From a virus, in IMG/VR virus record IMGVR_UViG_3300006925_000032, positions 1-45,435 of that record: a DNA stretch of 45,435 bases; one strand, written 5' to 3'. The translations under genes were made by a program, and so were the position numbers. Of the stretch, positions 15,030 to 39,060 are shown one piece after another (the stretch's first letter is position 1; every line of letters begins with the position of its first letter). The notes beneath the pieces are model-generated. The model had not been told where the DNA came from and made no database searches. It saw only the letters and a program-made list of their open reading frames with translations.

Positions 15030-15262
15030 TTATTCAATCCCCATATGTATGCTGAGTGTGTTCCGCTAATCGCTGATTGTTTCTTGAACGTATCTATCAC
15101 AATAAAATCAGGGTTCTTTGTAAGGATGCTTGCCATTTCAGAGGTCGATGGGGTCTGTCGAGGCCATCTGTCTTGGAACACAGTGATGATACTTTCTACG
15201 GAAAGGTTGCCTTCTTCTCTCAATGCTGTTTTAATTAATTTAATCAATCTTTTCTTACCCAT
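15026..15262 (-). CDS. Small winged-helix-like protein
   Basis: 78 residues from the ATG at 15262, chosen over a GTG nine bases earlier because GGTGA lies 5 nt upstream. The pattern is basic helix (KKRLIKLIKTALREEG), NLSVESIITVFQDRW, TPSTSEMASILTKNPDFIVI and a final YIWGLN strand. This reads as a winged-helix fold with a recognition helix and wing. The gene overlaps the end of the primase by 8 nt and the start of the nuclease by 4 nt. It could bind DNA as a primase or nuclease partner or act as a regulator; no family is certain. Confidence 0.55.
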   Translation of the reverse strand: MGKKRLIKLIKTALREEGNLSVESIITVFQDRWPRQTPSTSEMASILTKNPDFIVIDTFKKQSAISGTHSAYIWGLNK

Positions 15263-16367
15263 GTTGTTCACCTATGCTACCGTCGAAGTAGCGACATCTT
15301 CCGCTGCATAGTCCATCGTATTCAAGTGTAGCGCACGATGCGGCTGAGTAACCGCTGTTACCAGCACCGCCGAAAACGATGTTCTCTACCTGCTCACGAG
15401 TAATACGAGGGTTGTAATCAACCCATCCTTGTTCCTCTATGATACGGCATATCAATTCTACATGCTCAGCCTTGTCTTCATCATTCACAGCGGCCACTGG
15501 GTAGAACCAGCGAAACCTCGCTGCGAGGTATGTGACAAGATGGAATCTTGCTTTGTGAGTAGGGTTACCCTCACCTAATGCGGCTTGAGCAAGACAAGGT
15601 AAGACAATCGTAGAACCTAATGTGATGTCAGGTAAACCTTCTACTTTCTCCACCGTTTTCTTGAATGGACTTTTACGGTCTGTCACTGTAATGTTAATAT
15701 CTTTTTTACCAATCTCGATGTAACCACTAACTGGTGTTTGTGCTCTCTCCATAATCTCATCGTAAGTCAAGTTGAGTATCGAGTCGCTGTCCATTGGTAT
15801 ACTCCAACATCCTCTTCTGCTGTTGTATGAGTTCGGAATGCGAATCATACCTGACGTATCGAAAGCAACAGTAGGGTCGTTACAAGAAAGAGAGAGTTTC
15901 TTGTGCCACTGACTAATCAGTTTTCTACCACCCTCTTTGACTCGTGCTACACTGTAACCATCTGAAGGAGTGTGTATGTTTTGTAGAGGAATCCAAACGT
16001 GGAACCCACCACCACTAAACCATACAAAGTGTCGAATGTCTTCGCTTAGCAAAAAACGATGTAGCCTTTTAACCTGTTCGTGCATGAATGGAAAATCTAC
16101 ATCTGCTCCTCTCTGCTTGAAGTCCTTACAATCGAAGTCCATGACGAAGTGACGGATGATAGGTGTGTCGTAGTCTACTCTGTGGTTTCTTGGTGGCTTG
16201 GTCGCACGATAGCCGTATGCTGTGAAGTAGACGTTACCGCTACCATTCTTGCCTTTCCAGTATCGCTCTAACTCTTCCCAGTCCTTAACACAATAACGAC
16301 CACCCTGCTTCCCGTTCGATGCTATCTCAAGCACTTCACGAGGGAAGTCCAGCGAAATGAATCCCAT
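15255..16367 (-). CDS. Archaeo-eukaryotic primase (PriS-like) with Cys-bearing C-terminal domain
   Basis: 370 residues. Catalytic AEP motifs are clear: HFVMDFDCKD (D77, D79), SGGGFHVWIP (S118, H123) and FDTSGMIRIPNSYN (D170, R176). The C-terminal third holds PCLAQAALGEGNPTHKARFH and a late Cys cluster (C258, C345, C354, C358) that may bind an Fe-S cluster as in the C-terminal domain of PriL; no separate large-subunit gene is visible. It would make primers for the viral PolB. The gene sits between a 99-residue orphan and a winged-helix gene in one unit; GAGGACTGATACA precedes the ATG. Confidence 0.85.
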   Translation of the reverse strand: MGFISLDFPREVLEIASNGKQGGRYCVKDWEELERYWKGKNGSGNVYFTAYGYRATKPPRNHRVDYDTPIIRHFVMDFDCKDFKQRGADVDFPFMHEQVKRLHRFLLSEDIRHFVWFSGGGFHVWIPLQNIHTPSDGYSVARVKEGGRKLISQWHKKLSLSCNDPTVAFDTSGMIRIPNSYNSRRGCWSIPMDSDSILNLTYDEIMERAQTPVSGYIEIGKKDINITVTDRKSPFKKTVEKVEGLPDITLGSTIVLPCLAQAALGEGNPTHKARFHLVTYLAARFRWFYPVAAVNDEDKAEHVELICRIIEEQGWVDYNPRITREQVENIVFGGAGNSGYSAASCATLEYDGLCSGRCRYFDGSIGEQHG

Positions 16368-17642: not shown

Positions 17643-18008
17643 TCACCACTCCTTACCAAATTTGTTAGGCAGAGGAAAACGATAACGTGGCTTCAACTTG
17701 TTAAGTTCTGAGTCCTTGTATGCCTCAACTGTTTCCTCATCATCCATCGTCAGGCGTAAGAGGATGAAGTAACCAATCAGGTCTTCAATCACATCAACGT
17801 CAGACTCGATTGTATCGTTTCCACGCATGAGTCTACTGAGTTTGTCATCAATCCTAACTCTTAAGCCAGCATCAGGAGGAAGGTCGCTGAAGAAGCGGAT
17901 AGGGTCAAAGGCACTGTCACCATACTGAGCATTCTTCTCAGCAAGTAGGTTCACAATCTTACCTGCAATCTTAGCACACTTAATTTTGAAAGTCTCTTCT
18001 TCTGTCAC
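17643..18008 (-). CDS. DUF1599/MazG-like nucleotide-modification-associated protein
   Basis: 121 residues starting at GTG, forced by an in-frame stop three codons upstream. The GTG overlaps the stop of the two-PIP-box gene (GTGA). The helix pair KNAQYGDSAFDPIRFF and RVRIDDKLSRLMRGND, followed by DVIEDLIGYFILLRL, matches the phage family called DUF1599 or nucleotide-modification-associated domain 1, related to the all-alpha NTP pyrophosphatases. In phages this family associates with altered nucleotide pools or modified bases. Two cytosine methyltransferases in the window make a nucleotide role reasonable. Promoter B lies just upstream, inside the preceding gene. Confidence 0.7.
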   Translation of the reverse strand: MTEEETFKIKCAKIAGKIVNLLAEKNAQYGDSAFDPIRFFSDLPPDAGLRVRIDDKLSRLMRGNDTIESDVDVIEDLIGYFILLRLTMDDEETVEAYKDSELNKLKPRYRFPLPNKFGKEW

Positions 18009-18148
18009 TCTTCTTCACCAACCTCATCTTTACTGTTCCTTTTTATATCAACTTCAAACGTCATTCCAAACTCAGTGAGTTTGGTTTGTCTTCGCCCATC
18101 AGTTGTCAGTCCGTATTCGTCCAGTGTTGTTTGTCTTGTCTTTTTCAT
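18005..18148 (-). CDS. Two-PIP-box microprotein (candidate PCNA ligand)
   Basis: 47 residues. QTTLDEYG (6-13) and QTKLTEFG (21-28) both fit the PCNA-interacting consensus Q-x-x-(I/L/M)-x-x-(F/Y), 15 residues apart in an otherwise basic-then-acidic peptide with no other domain. The tail is DEVGEEE. The gene has a strong site (GAGGTGACAAA) overlapping the polB stop and ends overlapping the GTG of the next gene, so it is embedded in the replication block. The same window encodes a clamp, clamp loader and PolB. A clamp tether, clamp inhibitor or recruiter is inferred. Promoter B runs through codons 32-40. Confidence 0.6.
   Translation of the reverse strand: MKKTRQTTLDEYGLTTDGRRQTKLTEFGMTFEVDIKRNSKDEVGEEE
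18031..18052 (-). promoter_or_regulatory. Archaeal promoter B, inside a coding sequence
   Basis: Minus-strand GAAGTTGATATAAAAAGGAA then CAGTA: the shared element with one change (TATAAAAA for TATATAAA). Unlike the other nine it lies within a gene, the two-PIP-box ORF. The next start (GTG at 18008) is about 35 nt from the TATA core. It would drive the nuclease-primase unit independently of polB. Confidence 0.55.
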
Positions 18149-18157
18149 TTTGTCACC

Positions 18158-20566
18158 TCAAAAATATGACTTTGGCATTGTCACTCCCGAAGCAGCATCA
18201 AGCGCCCAGTCAAGGCTCTCATAGATTCGCATGAGTTTAGATTTAACCATAACACTGAGCACTTTGTCCCAGTCTATAGAATAGTTCTTCAACTCTGCTT
18301 TATCACGGAAAGCAACAAAGTTTACCTTCGCTCGCTCTCCTTTGAGTGTGTAGTAGTCAGGGACATCATCATTGAAACCCTTGACATAAATCCATGATAC
18401 ACTGTCGCCTTTACTCCATCGCTCTTCGGCGTTAGTGGCAACGTGTTCGTTGTAGTACATAGCGGCCTTTGCAGGTGCGGGTAGGCTCTTGTAATCCCTA
18501 AAGTCCATCGTCAATCGAGACGAGCAAGCCACGTCCTCAATCGGTATCTCACCGTTCTTGACTTGGAGACTTATCTCTCTCAGTACATCTGTGACGGCTG
18601 TTTCATCAGCACCAGTGCCTATCATTTCCATAGCCACCTTTTGAATGCGCTTAGTTATACGTGAAGAACTGGAGGCTTTGATTTCATAACCAGCAATCTT
18701 CATCTCACCCTTGCTTTTCTCAGGCCACGTCTTGATACCAAAGTAGCGGTTCTTCACTGGAGCAGTAGTCCAGTAATCGAAGTAAGCCTCAAGTTCAACT
18801 TCCATTGTTGGTAACTCAAGTTTGTTCTTAGCAGTCTCAGTCAAGTGCTCAGCGAGTGATATTGCTTCGTCAAAGGGTACTTGGATAAAAGCCGAATCCG
18901 TGTGACCATAGAGTGATTTGTAACCTTGCTCCTCACTCTCAGCCAGTAGATGGTGAATACACTCACGCCCTCTGTGGGTAATAGCGGCTGCTATGTCGTT
19001 GTCTACCCACATACCTTGAAGGAACTTCATCCCAGTCATACCGTAGAGTGCATTAACGAGAACCTTCGCCGCTGTTTGCATCATGTCGTAACCGAGTTTC
19101 TCATCAGGGTCTGTAGCCTCATGCATGAGTCTCTTGTATTCAGCACGCAATTCAAGCATCTCTTCTACGATAGCAGGGAGTAGACCTTTCTTCTTCTGAC
19201 ACCAGTGTGAGCCATCGCCCAGCGTCTTGGTAGTCTCTGTAGGTTGCTCACGCTTTGTCTCGTAGGATAGATTGTCGGAGAGAATGATGTTAGGATAGAG
19301 AGAAGCGTAGTCCACAATGGCTACACCCTCATGGCGACCCGCTATAGGGTCAGGAATGTGGGCGGCAGTGAGTTGTTCACGTCGATTGTTGATAGCACTC
19401 TTGGCTTTCTTATCCGTCCTTCTACCAACAAGCCCTCTAAAGTATCGAGTGACTTTGTGTGTGCTCGCCCACGAGACACCACACAATTGCTGAGTAGCAA
19501 CGAAGAAATCAATGGCGTTGAGTTTCTTGTCAATGTCACGCAGTAACGTGGTATCGAGAAGACAATAATCTACGAACTCACTCCAGTATTCATACCAACC
19601 ATTGTGAACAGTCATACCCTCAATCTCTTCTGTCAGTTTACTACCGAGTTCAAGCAACTCCGCTATAGTATTCAACTTACGGTTAGGTAGTTGTCCACGT
19701 CCTGACTTTTGCCATAGCGATTCAAAGCCACTCCCACTCTTCCAGTGAGCCGCTGAGTCCCAGCACAGTCTACCCTTGATGGGTTGTTGAGTGTCCTTGT
19801 AACCATCTCTACCCTTGAATGGTCGAATCACTTGACCGAGTGGTGAAAGTTGGTCAGGGTCTTTCAGTCTACGCATCAGGTGCGGTAAGTCAGCCCACAT
19901 CAGAGCATGGGCTACGAGAATGTCAGGGTCACGCTTGTGTAAGAAATCAATGAAGGCTTCATGCATCTCCGCTTCGGAGGGGTGGATTTGTAGTATGTAA
20001 TCTTCATCACGCACTGTTCTGTATCTTGCGCTTTCGATGTGTATTGGATAAGGACAATTGGTTTTTTCTTCATCAGCCCATGCAAATACAACAGGCTTCT
20101 CAAGGTCACTGTCCACGATAGCCATGACGGATGTGAAGTCATCCTTGACATCCCACTCCAAATCAAAATACCACACTCGTGGCTTGAACTCAGGTAACTT
20201 CTCAGGATAGAGTTTCAGTAGCACTTGGTCAAGGTAATTCAAGTCTGCTTCATAAGTAGGCATCTCGTCTTTGATGTCCCACAAGTCAGTAGGTCTGTCT
20301 ACCTCAACTTTCATCAATGTCTTCTTGTCAATACCAGCAGCACGAATGTTCCGATGAATCCGAGCACTGGGGTATCGAGCGAGCATACGATTAAGTTTCC
20401 ACTCAGGTGTGTTTAGTGGAATCCAACAATGTGGTTTTACGTACTTCTTGTCTTCAGGCCATATGTGCTCTTCATGCAGTACACCATCCTTGTCACGAGT
20501 CCGTAAGTAGAGATTAGGCTGTCCGAAGTTGTCGGAGTCAGCAGGGTAGTACCAGTCGATAATCAT
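18158..20566 (-). CDS. polB: Family B DNA polymerase
   Basis: 802 residues. Exonuclease motifs: ExoI YFDLEWD (D135, E137), ExoII VAHALMWAD (D226 kept, the usual Asn is Ala221) and ExoIII YCLLD (Y334, D338). Polymerase motifs: A DYASLYPNI (D419), B KVLVNALYG (K501, N505, Y508) and C YGHTDS, in which the first Asp of YGDTDS is His555 while catalytic Asp557 is kept. It replicates the viral genome with its own clamp and clamp loader. The C-terminus (GVTMPKSYF) is only loosely PIP-like. It starts 5 nt after the clamp gene. Confidence 0.97.
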   Translation of the reverse strand: MIIDWYYPADSDNFGQPNLYLRTRDKDGVLHEEHIWPEDKKYVKPHCWIPLNTPEWKLNRMLARYPSARIHRNIRAAGIDKKTLMKVEVDRPTDLWDIKDEMPTYEADLNYLDQVLLKLYPEKLPEFKPRVWYFDLEWDVKDDFTSVMAIVDSDLEKPVVFAWADEEKTNCPYPIHIESARYRTVRDEDYILQIHPSEAEMHEAFIDFLHKRDPDILVAHALMWADLPHLMRRLKDPDQLSPLGQVIRPFKGRDGYKDTQQPIKGRLCWDSAAHWKSGSGFESLWQKSGRGQLPNRKLNTIAELLELGSKLTEEIEGMTVHNGWYEYWSEFVDYCLLDTTLLRDIDKKLNAIDFFVATQQLCGVSWASTHKVTRYFRGLVGRRTDKKAKSAINNRREQLTAAHIPDPIAGRHEGVAIVDYASLYPNIILSDNLSYETKREQPTETTKTLGDGSHWCQKKKGLLPAIVEEMLELRAEYKRLMHEATDPDEKLGYDMMQTAAKVLVNALYGMTGMKFLQGMWVDNDIAAAITHRGRECIHHLLAESEEQGYKSLYGHTDSAFIQVPFDEAISLAEHLTETAKNKLELPTMEVELEAYFDYWTTAPVKNRYFGIKTWPEKSKGEMKIAGYEIKASSSSRITKRIQKVAMEMIGTGADETAVTDVLREISLQVKNGEIPIEDVACSSRLTMDFRDYKSLPAPAKAAMYYNEHVATNAEERWSKGDSVSWIYVKGFNDDVPDYYTLKGERAKVNFVAFRDKAELKNYSIDWDKVLSVMVKSKLMRIYESLDWALDAASGVTMPKSYF

Positions 20567-20570
20567 TCAA

Positions 20571-21326
20571 TCACGCTCTTTGGTCTACGATAACAAGTAG
20601 GTCTTCGTCTTTTTCAAGAGCGATGATAGTCGTTTCACCCATGTGTATGGTAGCCTCACCCTTACCGAGAAGGGCTATGTTATCCATCAGCCATGAACCG
20701 AATGTAGAACTCACGCTCCCAGTAACTGGACCAGTGGAATCACGCAACTCAAGTGTAGTGAACAACTTGGTTTCATGCCTCTTGCCCGAAGATATGAGAA
20801 ACTCATTTTCACTCGCATTGGCTGTAACCTTGAAGATAGGACTGCTGTTGAGAATACCTCTCATCTTCGATACAGTAGACAACTCATCCAGTGTGATGGT
20901 TCCTGATACGTTCAGGTCACACGAGTGGAACTTTGTCCACTTACTTGTCTCGGCTTCTTCAATCAACTTCTCAAAGAGTGTAGCCTTAGCCGCACTAATG
21001 ATTGTGGAAGACGTAGGCATAGTAATCTTAGATGACCCACATGTAATGTTCAGTGTCTTTGCTGAACCTGTCTGTGAGATGTTCACCACATCATCCTTCG
21101 CTGCTTTGAGAAACTGTCGAACCTTGACCAGTTCAGTGATGTCGAGGTTACCACTTTCTCCCACAACTCCTACTACTTCTCTCGTCTTCGATAAGTAGTA
21201 CGAGATGAAAGCAACAGATGCTGTCATGTGTTTATCATCGAACTTGATACGTAAGTCTTCTGTGTTTTTACCGAACTCCGATAGGAAGTCCAACAACTGT
21301 TTTCTGTTCATGTTTACTTTTGTCAT
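20571..21326 (-). CDS. pcn: PCNA-like sliding clamp
   Basis: 251 residues, the normal size for an archaeal PCNA. The fold pattern fits: an N-terminal helix (NRKQLLDFLSEF), strands with RIKFDDKHMTASVAF, a central helix KVRQFLKAA, a second-domain helix ATLFEKLIEEAE and a closing strand DEDLLVIVDQ. Sequence identity to cellular PCNA is evidently low, so the call leans on length, pattern and position between a RecA-like ATPase and polB, with RFC upstream. It would form a ring that tethers PolB and other PIP-box proteins. GAGGTGA lies 5 nt before the ATG and is part of a potential hairpin. Confidence 0.7.
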   Translation of the reverse strand: MTKVNMNRKQLLDFLSEFGKNTEDLRIKFDDKHMTASVAFISYYLSKTREVVGVVGESGNLDITELVKVRQFLKAAKDDVVNISQTGSAKTLNITCGSSKITMPTSSTIISAAKATLFEKLIEEAETSKWTKFHSCDLNVSGTITLDELSTVSKMRGILNSSPIFKVTANASENEFLISSGKRHETKLFTTLELRDSTGPVTGSVSSTFGSWLMDNIALLGKGEATIHMGETTIIALEKDEDLLVIVDQRA

Positions 21327-22467: not shown

Positions 22468-23808
22468 TCAGTTAAATTGACCCTTGCCTGTATCTCCACC
22501 AGTCTGTCGTTGTCGAATACGTCGAGCATCAGCAAAGACACCCATCACCTTGAGGCTTGGGATGTCCTTACCGTCTTTACGCTTGACCGCAATACGACCA
22601 CACACCAACACTGTAGAGCGTTCTGCGTAGGGAATAGTCTCGTCATCTGTTCGTGCAACGAATGGATTAACCAAGTCGTTACAAGCACTACCGACCCAGC
22701 ACATAACATCAGCAGCATCTGTGCTACCATGTTGGCTTTGAAGAGCAGTAGAAGTAAGTGTGAGTGAATAACCTCGTCCGTCTTCATCGTACTGATTGTC
22801 ACGAGGCTCAGTGGACATACGGTTCACTGTTCCCTTAGTGAAGACTATTGGGCCACTGCGACCTTGTTCACCATTGATTGTGAAGGTACGGCTACCTGAC
22901 TCAAAGGCATCAACCAACTCATCGAGTGGGACGTAGTGAGGGTGGAGGTCGTTATCAGTCCAAAACTTGAACGGCTTGAGTAAGCCCTTCATACCATCAT
23001 TAACAAAAGCATCAGTGTATTCGATACTCTTGGATATTCCCATGCTGGTAGACAAGACATCCTTGAATCCTTCAGCGGCTTTCTCGCTCGGTGGTCGTGC
23101 CATGATACGACATGGTTCACCAATGAGAATCTCAGCGTCAGCGTCCTCGCCTTGCATGTCCAAACGCCATAGTTGAATAGCACCATCGTTGGTGAACTCA
23201 TCTTCAGAAGCGCCTAAGAAGTGGTAGTTACGACCATTCATCGACATGGCTTTTGGTCGGCCACTCTTAGCGAGCAAACAAATGCGCTCACCGTCAGCGA
23301 TGAAAGAGTTATCAGGGATTTCATCTACAGGCATCTCTGTAAGAGAAGAGCCTTTGTTTGTAGATAGTGACCATAGGCCGTCTGTCTTGTGGTAATGTCC
23401 TACCATTCCACTACCGATAGCGGAGTTGGGGTCAAGTGTGAAGTCACGTTTGGCACGAGCAACGAGGTTGCTTCGACGGTCACGTCGCTTGTCATCGACA
23501 CCGACAAAGCATCCAACGAATGGAACAGAGCCAGCCATAGGTGCTCCGCCACTACCAATGTTCCGTGTCTCAATGAACATCTGTTCAGCCCAGTCAATGA
23601 GTAAGTCCTCATCTTCTTGGCTTGGGTCAGTACACCCATGCTCCTTGTTAATTTGTGCAAGGAAGTCAGTGACTACCTTTTGGATGTCTTGTTTGGTACG
23701 AGTAGCATATTGCTCCAGTCGCTCCAGCACACCTTCGGGTAGGCTACTGCTTACCGCTACAGTGTGGTCGTCTTCATTTTGTCCGTTATCTTCATATTCG
23801 TCTGTCAT
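22468..23808 (-). CDS. Candidate ssDNA-binding (RPA/OB-fold-like) protein
   Basis: 446 residues from the ATG at 23808, chosen for GGAGGTATTATC just upstream; the longer frame is not needed. The acidic N-terminus is followed by a ribbon-helix-helix-like stretch (SLPEGVLERLEQYATRTKQD), then beta-rich segments such as VGCFVGVDDKRRDRRS and a late VLVCGRIAVKRKDGKDI with a basic end (DARRIRQRQ) that look like OB strands. Its place between the clamp loader and a Sak4-like ATPase favours an SSB/RPA role. No family motif proves it. It overlaps the RFC stop (ATGA). Confidence 0.45.
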   Translation of the reverse strand: MTDEYEDNGQNEDDHTVAVSSSLPEGVLERLEQYATRTKQDIQKVVTDFLAQINKEHGCTDPSQEDEDLLIDWAEQMFIETRNIGSGGAPMAGSVPFVGCFVGVDDKRRDRRSNLVARAKRDFTLDPNSAIGSGMVGHYHKTDGLWSLSTNKGSSLTEMPVDEIPDNSFIADGERICLLAKSGRPKAMSMNGRNYHFLGASEDEFTNDGAIQLWRLDMQGEDADAEILIGEPCRIMARPPSEKAAEGFKDVLSTSMGISKSIEYTDAFVNDGMKGLLKPFKFWTDNDLHPHYVPLDELVDAFESGSRTFTINGEQGRSGPIVFTKGTVNRMSTEPRDNQYDEDGRGYSLTLTSTALQSQHGSTDAADVMCWVGSACNDLVNPFVARTDDETIPYAERSTVLVCGRIAVKRKDGKDIPSLKVMGVFADARRIRQRQTGGDTGKGQFN

Positions 23809-24755
23809 GATAATACCTCCTTTCGTAGTCGTGCCACAAGGCAATCAACAAAGGAATATGAACCGATAGGCCATTCATACATGTGGGGAATCATCTCTCC
23901 CAGCACACCCATGACTGTCCATGTGTTGTCTTCATCCATCTCAAAGAACTCGGTTAGGTTCTCATGGAATGTTCGCATGACGAAGGTAAGTGAAAGCCCT
24001 CTGTCAAACATGGTATAGAGTTGCTTACGCATGTCGCCGTAGTCACCACTGATAGCAGCAAGTGCGGCCTGTGATGGGTTGCCCCCATCGGATAGTCTCT
24101 TCTGTAGAGAAGTAAGGGGAGCGTCACCTTGACTCGCCATGATAGCGATAGCCATACGCATATCACCACCAGTGAACTTCATGAGTCGCATGAATGTGTT
24201 ACTCCAAGCGCTGAGTGTATCATCACCCATGTTGGATAAGTGTCCTTTGAATAAATCAACAAGCCTCTTAGCCCCATCTTCAGGACTGATAGGCTTGAAC
24301 TCATACACAAGACACCTGCTTCGGATAGCAGGTTTGATTTTGCTAATCTCGTTGCATGTAAAGATGTAGAAAACATTGTCAGCATACTCTTCCATGATGC
24401 CCCTTAGAGCATCTTGAGCAGCAGGGGTGAGGCCGTCAGCCTCGTCTACGATGATGCCTCTCCTGTCAGTGCCTACAGCCTTGACCGCACTCATCTGTTT
24501 GAGTTGGTTACGAATGTAGTCAAGCCCTCTGTCATCTGAGGCATTGACAATGATGTAGTTCATGGGGTCAAAGTAGTCACCCATCTTCTCACGGAGCATG
24601 ACCTTCGCCGCAGTGGACTTACCAGTGCCTTGCATACCGTGGAGGAGAACAGCACGAGGCCACTTACCACCATTCCGCCAACCCATAGCGTCGGAGACAA
24701 AGGCAGTCTGACCTGCTATGTCCTCCAAGGTCTGTGGTTCTGTGCTGTTCTCCAT
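23805..24755 (-). CDS. rfcS: Clamp loader, RFC small subunit-like
   Basis: 316 residues from MENSTEP (ATG at 24755); an ATG nine bases upstream is possible but lies too close to the TATA element. Walker A is GMQGTGKS (40-47), Walker B IIVDEAD (104-107), followed by an SRC arginine-finger motif (146-148) and the C-terminal collar helices. This AAA+ protein loads the PCNA-like clamp on primed DNA. Only one RFC gene is visible, so it either forms a homo-oligomer or uses a host large subunit. It is the first gene of the replication unit, with promoter C about 22 nt before the start. Confidence 0.95.
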   Translation of the reverse strand: MENSTEPQTLEDIAGQTAFVSDAMGWRNGGKWPRAVLLHGMQGTGKSTAAKVMLREKMGDYFDPMNYIIVNASDDRGLDYIRNQLKQMSAVKAVGTDRRGIIVDEADGLTPAAQDALRGIMEEYADNVFYIFTCNEISKIKPAIRSRCLVYEFKPISPEDGAKRLVDLFKGHLSNMGDDTLSAWSNTFMRLMKFTGGDMRMAIAIMASQGDAPLTSLQKRLSDGGNPSQAALAAISGDYGDMRKQLYTMFDRGLSLTFVMRTFHENLTEFFEMDEDNTWTVMGVLGEMIPHMYEWPIGSYSFVDCLVARLRKEVLS

Positions 24756-24766
24756 AAATATCATCC

Positions 24767-37791: not shown

Positions 37792-39060
37792 TCAGATGAA
37801 GTCTCCCAGTCCATCGAAGTCAGACCCACGCTCATCCAAGTAGTCATCAAGACTCTTGTGTGAGATTCGTAAGCGAGACTCCTCTTGCTTGCGCTTCAGT
37901 TCCTTATTGTTGAGTTGTTTCTTATTCTTCGCAGGGTAGTTCTTGCCTTTGCCTTTGCCTTTGCCTTTGCCTTTGCCCTTCTTGTCTTTGGCTCGCTTGG
38001 TTTGCTCTGCCTTCTTGAGTAGAGCAGTGCGTTCAGCATCACGAGAGTGCCATGTCTCTACGTTCATGAACTCAGGTAGGTAGAACTTCTTGGACTTCTT
38101 ACAATGAACCATACCATCACGAGTCTTGACACTGGCTTCTTCAGCGGCACAGACAACACAGTGTCCATCATCATGCATACCAAAGTGAGACACAGTGTTG
38201 TCACACTTAGGACAGATGCCTGACATATCATACAGTGCATCGGTGGACAGCATCATCTCAGGCGCTCCACAGTTGTTACACTGTTGAGGTACTGAGTCAT
38301 CAATGTGAGTCCACTCAGGTGTACTGCATATACCACAAGAGTACAATGACCATGTGGATGGGAAACCATCTCCGTCATCGTAATCATCTTCATCAGCAAA
38401 CCAGTAGTCAGCCTTCGGTTGATTCTCCTTCTTGCCATTCTTCTTCATGGGGTAGTCAGATGTATCAGTGAATGTGAAGTTGTTCTTCTTCTTGAACGAA
38501 GCGAAGAGTGGCTTGCCTTCAGGTAACTGTAAGACTTCAGCGATGTAAGTCTGTTGTGACTTACCCTCAACAGCATGGTGACAATAGATGTCACGAACAT
38601 ACTCAACGAGTGATGCAGTGTCAGGTTGCTTGAGGCAAGTAGGGTCACCCATGAGGTAACCGAGTATACATAGTTGCACACCAGTACGACCATGACCACC
38701 AACACATTGAGTAGAGACTGTCTTGATACCCAACCGCTTGATGTCGGCAACGAGTGCCAACCAAAACTCACGGTGAACATCTTGAGGGATAGAGAAGTCA
38801 GGCCAGTCAATGCTGATAATCATTGGAGTGTCACCACCAACGTAGCCTTGACAAGTCCAACCATCAGGCACAACAGTGGCACGAGGATTGTCCATCACCT
38901 GTGCTGGGCCGATGGCGAGGTCGGGTAGTGGTGACATACGATGCCACCCACCGTCACGACTGTGACCACCAGCATGTATTGCTACACCATCTATCTCAAA
39001 CACAACTGGGTTACCAGTGTGACATCCAACTTTGTTTCCATATCCTTTCATCCAATTCAT
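37792..39060 (-). CDS. Tyrosine/dual-specificity phosphatase with zinc ribbons and Lys-rich tail
   Basis: 422 residues. The N-terminal phosphatase domain has a WPD loop (IDWPDFSIP, 86-88) and the signature CVGGHGRTG (C119 to R125, C-x5-R), so it is a cysteine phosphatase for phospho-Tyr or phospho-Ser/Thr. Eight Cys follow as four CxxC pairs (242/245, 261/264, 283/286, 301/304), two zinc ribbons. Then comes a Lys/Gly repeat (362-373) and a C-terminal SHKSLDDYL, a weak PIP-like sequence. Its start overlaps the stop of the PEP-synthase-like gene. Targets are unknown; it may act on host phosphoproteins. Confidence 0.75.
   Translation of the reverse strand: MNWMKGYGNKVGCHTGNPVVFEIDGVAIHAGGHSRDGGWHRMSPLPDLAIGPAQVMDNPRATVVPDGWTCQGYVGGDTPMIISIDWPDFSIPQDVHREFWLALVADIKRLGIKTVSTQCVGGHGRTGVQLCILGYLMGDPTCLKQPDTASLVEYVRDIYCHHAVEGKSQQTYIAEVLQLPEGKPLFASFKKKNNFTFTDTSDYPMKKNGKKENQPKADYWFADEDDYDDGDGFPSTWSLYSCGICSTPEWTHIDDSVPQQCNNCGAPEMMLSTDALYDMSGICPKCDNTVSHFGMHDDGHCVVCAAEEASVKTRDGMVHCKKSKKFYLPEFMNVETWHSRDAERTALLKKAEQTKRAKDKKGKGKGKGKGKGKNYPAKNKKQLNNKELKRKQEESRLRISHKSLDDYLDERGSDFDGLGDFI
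37943..37978 (-). repeat. Six-copy hexanucleotide repeat in the phosphatase gene
   Basis: Five TTGCCT units and a sixth ending in C on the + strand, read on the minus strand as alternating Lys-Gly codons (KGKGKGKGKG). A copy-number-variable tract could lengthen or shorten the basic linker in frame. Confidence 0.8.

Follow-up and report, generated by a model that had tools for sequence, protein, structure and literature searches.

A gene that encodes little besides two PIP boxes

PIP boxes normally occur as tails or loops on enzymes. In the viral DNA analysed here (hereafter the window, the whole stretch of 45,435 nucleotides), the open reading frame (ORF) directly after the gene for the family-B DNA polymerase (polB) would encode a protein of 47 residues with two PIP boxes and no other domain, which raises the question of whether this ORF is a gene and, if so, what a protein of this kind does for the virus. 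The gene content of the window, including PolB, a sliding clamp, an RFC-like clamp loader, a PD-(D/E)XK nuclease and a chaperonin, fits that of the 'magroviruses' of Poseidoniales (PMC10768690, PMC12999244). The locus comprises the following features:

18005-18148, minus strand: PIP-only microprotein gene, 47 aa, two PIP boxes, translation MKKTRQTTLDEYGLTTDGRRQTKLTEFGMTFEVDIKRNSKDEVGEEE
18113-18133, minus strand: PIP box 1, QTTLDEY (residues 6-12), G at motif position 8
18068-18088, minus strand: PIP box 2, QTKLTEF (residues 21-27), then GMTFE
18153-18159, minus strand: Shine-Dalgarno (SD) sequence GAGGTGA, 4 nt before the microprotein ATG (18148)
18005-18008, minus strand: GTGA overlap of 4 nt between the microprotein stop and the GTG start of the next gene
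17643-18008, minus strand: gene after the microprotein, 121 aa, PHROG 1485

An earlier note, made from the DNA letters of the window, had placed the ORF just after polB and overlapping the next gene, and both statements hold: the polB stop TGA (18160-18158) falls within the strong SD sequence of the microprotein (TGAGGTGACAAA-ATG), and the GTGA overlap lies at the downstream end. The VGEEE codons at the C-terminus of the microprotein double as the ribosome-binding site of the gene at 17643-18008, so conservation of these residues requires no protein function. The two motifs of the form Q-x-x-(I/L/M)-x-x-(F/Y) reported in the same note were likewise located at the reported spacing, with 15 residues between the starting glutamines of QTTLDEY and QTKLTEF. 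Two Q-x-x-[ILM]-x-x-[FY] motifs arose in 4 of 100,000 shuffles of the ORF's own residues, and a second ORF with two such motifs was not found among the other window ORFs of at least 30 aa. Pfam, PHROGs, a phage genome collection and the PDB held no known family matching the microprotein, the only matches being sub-threshold and attributable to chance.

When a PIP profile was run over the near-complete 107-kb genome of L002, a close relative, the two best matches were the tandem motifs (30.1 and 28.2 bits), and the third-best match reached 14.0 bits; as the profile was built from these motifs and their relatives, their own scores follow from its construction, and the gap to the other proteins is the informative quantity. 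Nine PIP matches in this genome scored at least 9 bits, versus 3.6 expected from shuffled proteins.

Conservation in relatives directly after polB

The decisive evidence for the reality of the ORF is its conservation in relatives, which were collected with a polB scan (53 loci) and with a profile, which added 80 (on contigs partly shared with the first set). An ORF with the motif directly follows polB in 33 loci of other viruses of Poseidoniales (Marine Group II), carrying a double motif in 28 and a single motif in five; these loci extend down to about 44% polB identity and, on the polB tree, fall on both sides of a deep split. Of 31 homologous post-polB starts, 26 have an SD-like site in front, compared with 3% of antisense ATG ORFs. 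The 47-aa ORF at 18148-18005 is thus confirmed as a real gene.

Among the relatives, Q1, the aliphatic residue at position 4, E6 and the aromatic residue at position 7 are retained, while the codons and most other residues differ. In 15 representative double forms, for example, Q1 is present in both motifs of all 15, position 7 alternates between F, W and Y, and the codons for Q, T and L vary. Pairwise comparison gave 84 synonymous versus 97 non-synonymous differences at the three key motif positions, and 47 versus 423 in the five residues after motif 1. The condition named in the earlier note as refuting, homologues in which the ORF is present and both motifs are gone, was checked against these loci, and the idea held: both motifs persist in relatives, with the partial exception of two loci (L017 and L018) where the post-polB ORF is present with degraded motifs (ATKLTHF, QTQVEDW).

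The reading frame bears on whether the ORF encodes a separate protein or a C-terminal tail of PolB that has become detached or is reached by read-through. A single stop codon separates polB from an in-frame ORF in the window, L002-L005 and L009, as expected of such a tail, but across lineages the frame relative to polB is 0, +1 or +2, the stop codon is TAA in L009, most starts carry the SD-like site described above, and copies unlinked from polB exist. Together, these observations make a PolB tail scarcely credible. A read-through PolB fusion was also considered as a specific candidate and rejected, as the frames differ between lineages and residues 798-853 of the folded polB+TGA+ORF product had a pLDDT <50; with regard to docking on PolB, this model is a weak negative, the alignment of the tail being shallow.

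Motif consensus and copy number

The 43 motifs of 26 representative sequences follow the consensus R-Q-T-(T/K)-L-x-E-(F/W/Y)-G-(F/M/L)-x-F. Positions 1, 4 and 7 belong to the regular expression with which motifs were counted, whereas positions 2, 6 and 8 lie outside it and were T2 in 40, E/D6 in 42 and G8 in 36 of the 43 motifs; at position 7, F, W and Y are freely swapped. The canonical Gln at position 1, aliphatic residue at 4 and aromatic residue at 7 are present in both window motifs. A second aromatic residue at position 8, found as W or F in 34 of 34 polymerases of a second virus group (see below), is absent from all 43 motifs, which mostly have G instead. Since 43% of 77 proven PCNA motifs are without one of the two aromatics (PMC6881253), this absence does not disqualify the microprotein motif. 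The G at position 8 lowers its claim to the label 'canonical PIP box' but not to working like a PIP, and may mean that affinity for the clamp is weak.

Copy number varies, with two motifs in 17 of the 26 representatives and one in nine, and single and double forms can be sisters (L011 and L092 beside L006). Total length ranges from 17 to 69 aa, and both the length and the residues after the motifs are variable. The shortest two-copy forms (29-30 aa) consist of two PIP boxes and a linker, as in the natural 29-mer MEEKKKYRQTTLHEFMPEATRQTTLEEFL. Within the 15 double forms, the linker measures 6 residues in seven sequences, 8 in five and 9 or 12 in the remainder (12 in one).

Two motifs in one chain could act as a bivalent bridge, joining subunits within one ring, linking two rings, or tying the viral ring to that of the host, and a tether between two ring subunits had been suggested in the earlier note. 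The frequency of two-copy forms is consistent with a bridge, as are the narrow Q-to-Q spacing (13-16 in nearly all) and the fact that most proteins of another family of PIP carriers (family A, see below) retain a second invariant Q 14 residues away. However, copy number flips between one and two, in some cases between sisters, and linkers of 6-9 residues (12 in one) extend to at most about 20-35 Å, which, judged from general PCNA geometry, is probably too short to reach neighbouring pockets. A bridging role consequently appears improbable.

A second virus group with split PolB

A degenerate DNA pattern for two adjacent PIPs, used to look for further microproteins, matched three contigs with PolB split into two genes, an arrangement described for Aoguangviridae (PMC10768690). 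The tandem peptide in these contigs (e.g. MENSRQTTLDEFGFVLGTRQTTLEEFGFVFE) lies about 9 kb from polB, and a location beside polB is therefore not essential. A profile search identified single or double versions of 17-34 aa in 10 of 26 further contigs, several of which are fragments; for the shortest forms, we set the start at the nearest ATG or alternative start codon.

The C-terminus of a polymerase is the classic place for docking on the clamp, and a C-terminal PIP is the usual arrangement in archaeal PolB. In the split-PolB group (L224-L257), the PolB-CTD ends exactly in Q-x-x-L-x-x-W-(F/W) in 34 of 34 loci, from which we infer that the polymerases of these viruses dock on the clamp via a C-terminal PIP consensus. 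Unsplit relatives have a PolB with a bare aromatic end: of 70 distinct C-termini, 66 carry an aromatic within the last three residues, in part owing to the double role of TGG-TGA as an SD sequence.

The viral clamp, loader and polymerase

The window encodes the following components of a replication machinery:

20571-21326, minus strand: sliding clamp, 251 aa, PCNA fold (AF2 and Foldseek), candidate cis target
23805-24764, minus strand: RFC-like AAA+ clamp-loader subunit
18158-20566, minus strand: family-B DNA polymerase, 802 aa, ending PKSYF, without a canonical C-terminal PIP box

The PCNA-fold clamp and the RFC-like AAA+ subunit bear out the earlier note, which described a PIP-box protein devoid of further domains in a virus encoding its own clamp and loader. 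The AF2 model of the clamp (35-sequence alignment, pLDDT 92) has a two-domain PCNA fold, and its best Foldseek matches are archaeal PCNAs (P. furiosus 1iz5, E 2e-12, TM about 0.65); the Pfam PCNA (N-terminal) model did not match the protein at 20571-21326. Between the two domains (residues 104-139), a helix is predicted (110-127) at the place of the interdomain loop of PCNA, and the pocket of the viral clamp may, judging from the model, deviate from that of canonical PCNA. Because the clamp encoded nearby has a PCNA fold and the split-PolB polymerases end in the same consensus, binding to a PCNA-type clamp is the clear reading of the motifs, and it is very probable that the microprotein binds a clamp of this type of some kind.

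In the PIP-profile scan of the near-complete L002, L084 and L028 genomes, none of the replication enzymes bore a strong canonical PIP. The protein at 37792-39060 of the window has the C-terminus HKSLDDYLDERG, which reads TQRSLDDYLEDRG in its L002 homologue and may be a third, weak PIP box.

Other small carriers of the PIP

Viruses without the microprotein usually bear a PIP in other small proteins, which belong to two families:

L010:3035-3238, L013:5002-5223, L116:3183-3416 and others: family A, 58-82 aa
16372-16671 of the window, minus strand: family C protein, 99 aa, PIP lost (TTSRILIENY)

Family A proteins, for which Pfam gave no match, have the form WKxW...C-x-CGG...RQTTLDEFFDMTPxxQ(K)RL...RKYRG; the N-terminus is aromatic and basic (WKFWKK), a C-x-CGG knuckle follows, and the second invariant Q belongs to a Q-x-(K/R)-L motif. 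In most cases the gene lies directly upstream of the clamp, mostly with a TGATG overlap with the clamp start codon, or downstream of polB. Family A and the microprotein were never found together (24 versus 33 loci), although each of the two clusters on the polB tree and the pattern represents few independent events, not 57. On long contigs of microprotein viruses, the family A profile gave weak matches, located at the PIP motifs of known ORFs.

Family C proteins (about 100 aa, e.g. L124:7603-7911) are encoded between the nuclease and a primase-like gene (15255-16367 in the window) and, with few exceptions among the loci where the family was detected, contain an embedded PIP loop. The PIP is lost in the window virus, L002, L070 and L082, and all four have the microprotein. 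The family has a weak sub-threshold match to the DNA ligase N-terminus and no more. Taken together, these distributions suggest that the PIP appears to shift between small carriers (families A, B and C) during evolution. In one clade (L028-L042 and L051) the clamp is present and no PIP carrier was found in the polB flanks searched, nor in the near-complete L028 genome, so the function of the PIP peptide is dispensable or replaced there.

Two further observations concern individual loci. L047:9565-9903 encodes a 112-aa protein with two canonical PIPs at its end (RQARLDEFFDVNTGNDITGKQTTLDEWF), in a virus that also has a double-PIP microprotein. L142 (NZMJ01000138.1) is a magrovirus contig inside a metagenome-assembled genome of Maricaulis, a bacterium, and is evidently mis-binned.

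The C-terminal PIP box of PolD has been proposed to bind PCNA or primase (PMC7101311), and family C, with its PIP loop in relatives, is encoded directly before the primase-like gene. The microprotein motif could accordingly be only PIP-like, with another peptide-binding protein such as primase as its real partner. That the canonical Q, L and aromatic are all retained, and that the same consensus is found at polymerase C-termini, argues against this, and we consider such a partner very unlikely.

Proposed function by pocket occupancy

We consider it somewhat more likely than not that the microprotein is a clamp-pocket ligand acting by occupancy, with a slight preference for a host target. Occupancy is the simplest function because the minimal forms contain nothing besides PIP boxes, and it is supported by the absence of any other domain and of docking on PolB in the readthrough model. 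In addition, very distant viruses share the tag although everything around it has changed, so the peptide probably occupies the clamp and competes with other proteins for the ring. The disordered, stand-alone peptide would dock on the clamp with the Q, L and aromatic of each PIP entering the PIP pocket, and the occupied pocket would keep other PIP-bearing proteins off the ring without bringing an enzyme along. Two copies would allow more pockets to be blocked, or rebound, per peptide, and bridging of two subunits would be unnecessary.

The target of such a ligand may be the PCNA of the host (Poseidoniales), either for host takeover or to shield viral DNA from host PIP enzymes. Host PCNA is favoured because the scanned viral replication enzymes bear no strong PIPs, so that there would be little to displace from the viral clamp, and because position 8 differs consistently between microprotein and polymerase PIPs. 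Blocking of host proteins, one of the suggestions in the earlier note, would be a possible outcome. The viral clamp would be nearly as likely a target, with the peptide as a placeholder or exchange factor, and is favoured by the clustering of the microprotein gene with polB and the clamp gene in the window's group.

A rather unlikely alternative is that the microprotein is an integral part of the viral replisome, produced together with clamp and polymerase, and either binds the viral clamp with low affinity as a placeholder or exchange factor or supplies a PIP in trans to a PolB that has lost its own. The genes for clamp, polymerase and microprotein follow one another and are translationally coupled, family A is similarly placed at the clamp start codon or after polB, and the split-PolB polymerases bear their own C-terminal PIP whereas the window PolB ends PKSYF. 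In contrast, viruses of the split-PolB group have the microprotein alongside a PolB with its own PIP, the genes of the two being unlinked, and the minimal forms have no sequence for holding PolB, on which the modelled tail was undocked. Recruitment of the viral polymerase, also put forward in the earlier note, is unlikely for the same reasons, as the 29-30-aa forms are without a partner-holding sequence and the peptide of the readthrough model is disordered and undocked.

Returning to pocket occupancy, we tentatively propose a more specific version, which falls short of being probable: dedicated PIP-only microproteins (17-69 aa, RQTxLxE-aromatic-G) may be clamp plugs that switch off or re-program host PCNA during replication with the viral clamp, while the PIP moves among families A, B and C.

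Comparison with known systems and significance

PIP-only viral microproteins were not described in the literature searched, a scope outside which most subscription papers lie, and the search for natural tandem PIPs gave artificial repeats only, namely GST-PolD4 PIP fusions carrying between one and four repeats (PMC10087552). These fusions and the viral peptide both carry consecutive PIPs in one chain, although GST-PolD4 is a laboratory construct and not a natural gene. The Thermococcales inhibitor of PCNA (TIP, 64 aa) binds PCNA and blocks PolB and Fen1 in vitro, and is similar to the viral peptide in being a very small archaeal PCNA binder, proposed to act via an N-terminal PIP motif (PMC4929162). 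However, TIP is a cellular protein of Thermococcales only, with a putative partial PH-like domain and one putative PIP, whereas the viral peptide is PIP only and often doubled. No sequence relationship between the two was found, and the viral peptides, many of which are 17-36 aa and all of which are variable outside the motif, have no room for a TIP-type PH-like domain.

In eukaryotes, the extended PIP peptide of p21/Cip1 is a PCNA inhibitor with one PIP, two aromatics and a basic extension, in a protein that also has a CDK-inhibitory function. The viral peptide, as proposed here, would similarly be a disordered ligand in the PIP pocket competing with replication enzymes, but its motif has one aromatic and then G in place of two aromatics and a basic extension. 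Among archaeal viruses, SIRV2 Gp1 is reported to bind host PCNA3 (PMC5537682, citing Gardner et al. 2014). As may be the case for the microprotein, Gp1 engages the host sliding clamp, but it is a larger replication protein, and magroviruses encode their own clamp.

The microprotein gene encodes hardly anything except the PIP tag, present once or twice, and this PIP-only peptide has been kept in at least two divergent virus groups of an abundant marine archaeal order. It would represent a minimal natural clamp ligand, and peptides of 29-47 aa can be synthesised and are directly testable. With a single aromatic followed by G, versus W-F on the polymerases, these peptides may also be useful for studying clamp selectivity. 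The microprotein is, moreover, a possible mechanism by which archaeal viruses shut off host replication.
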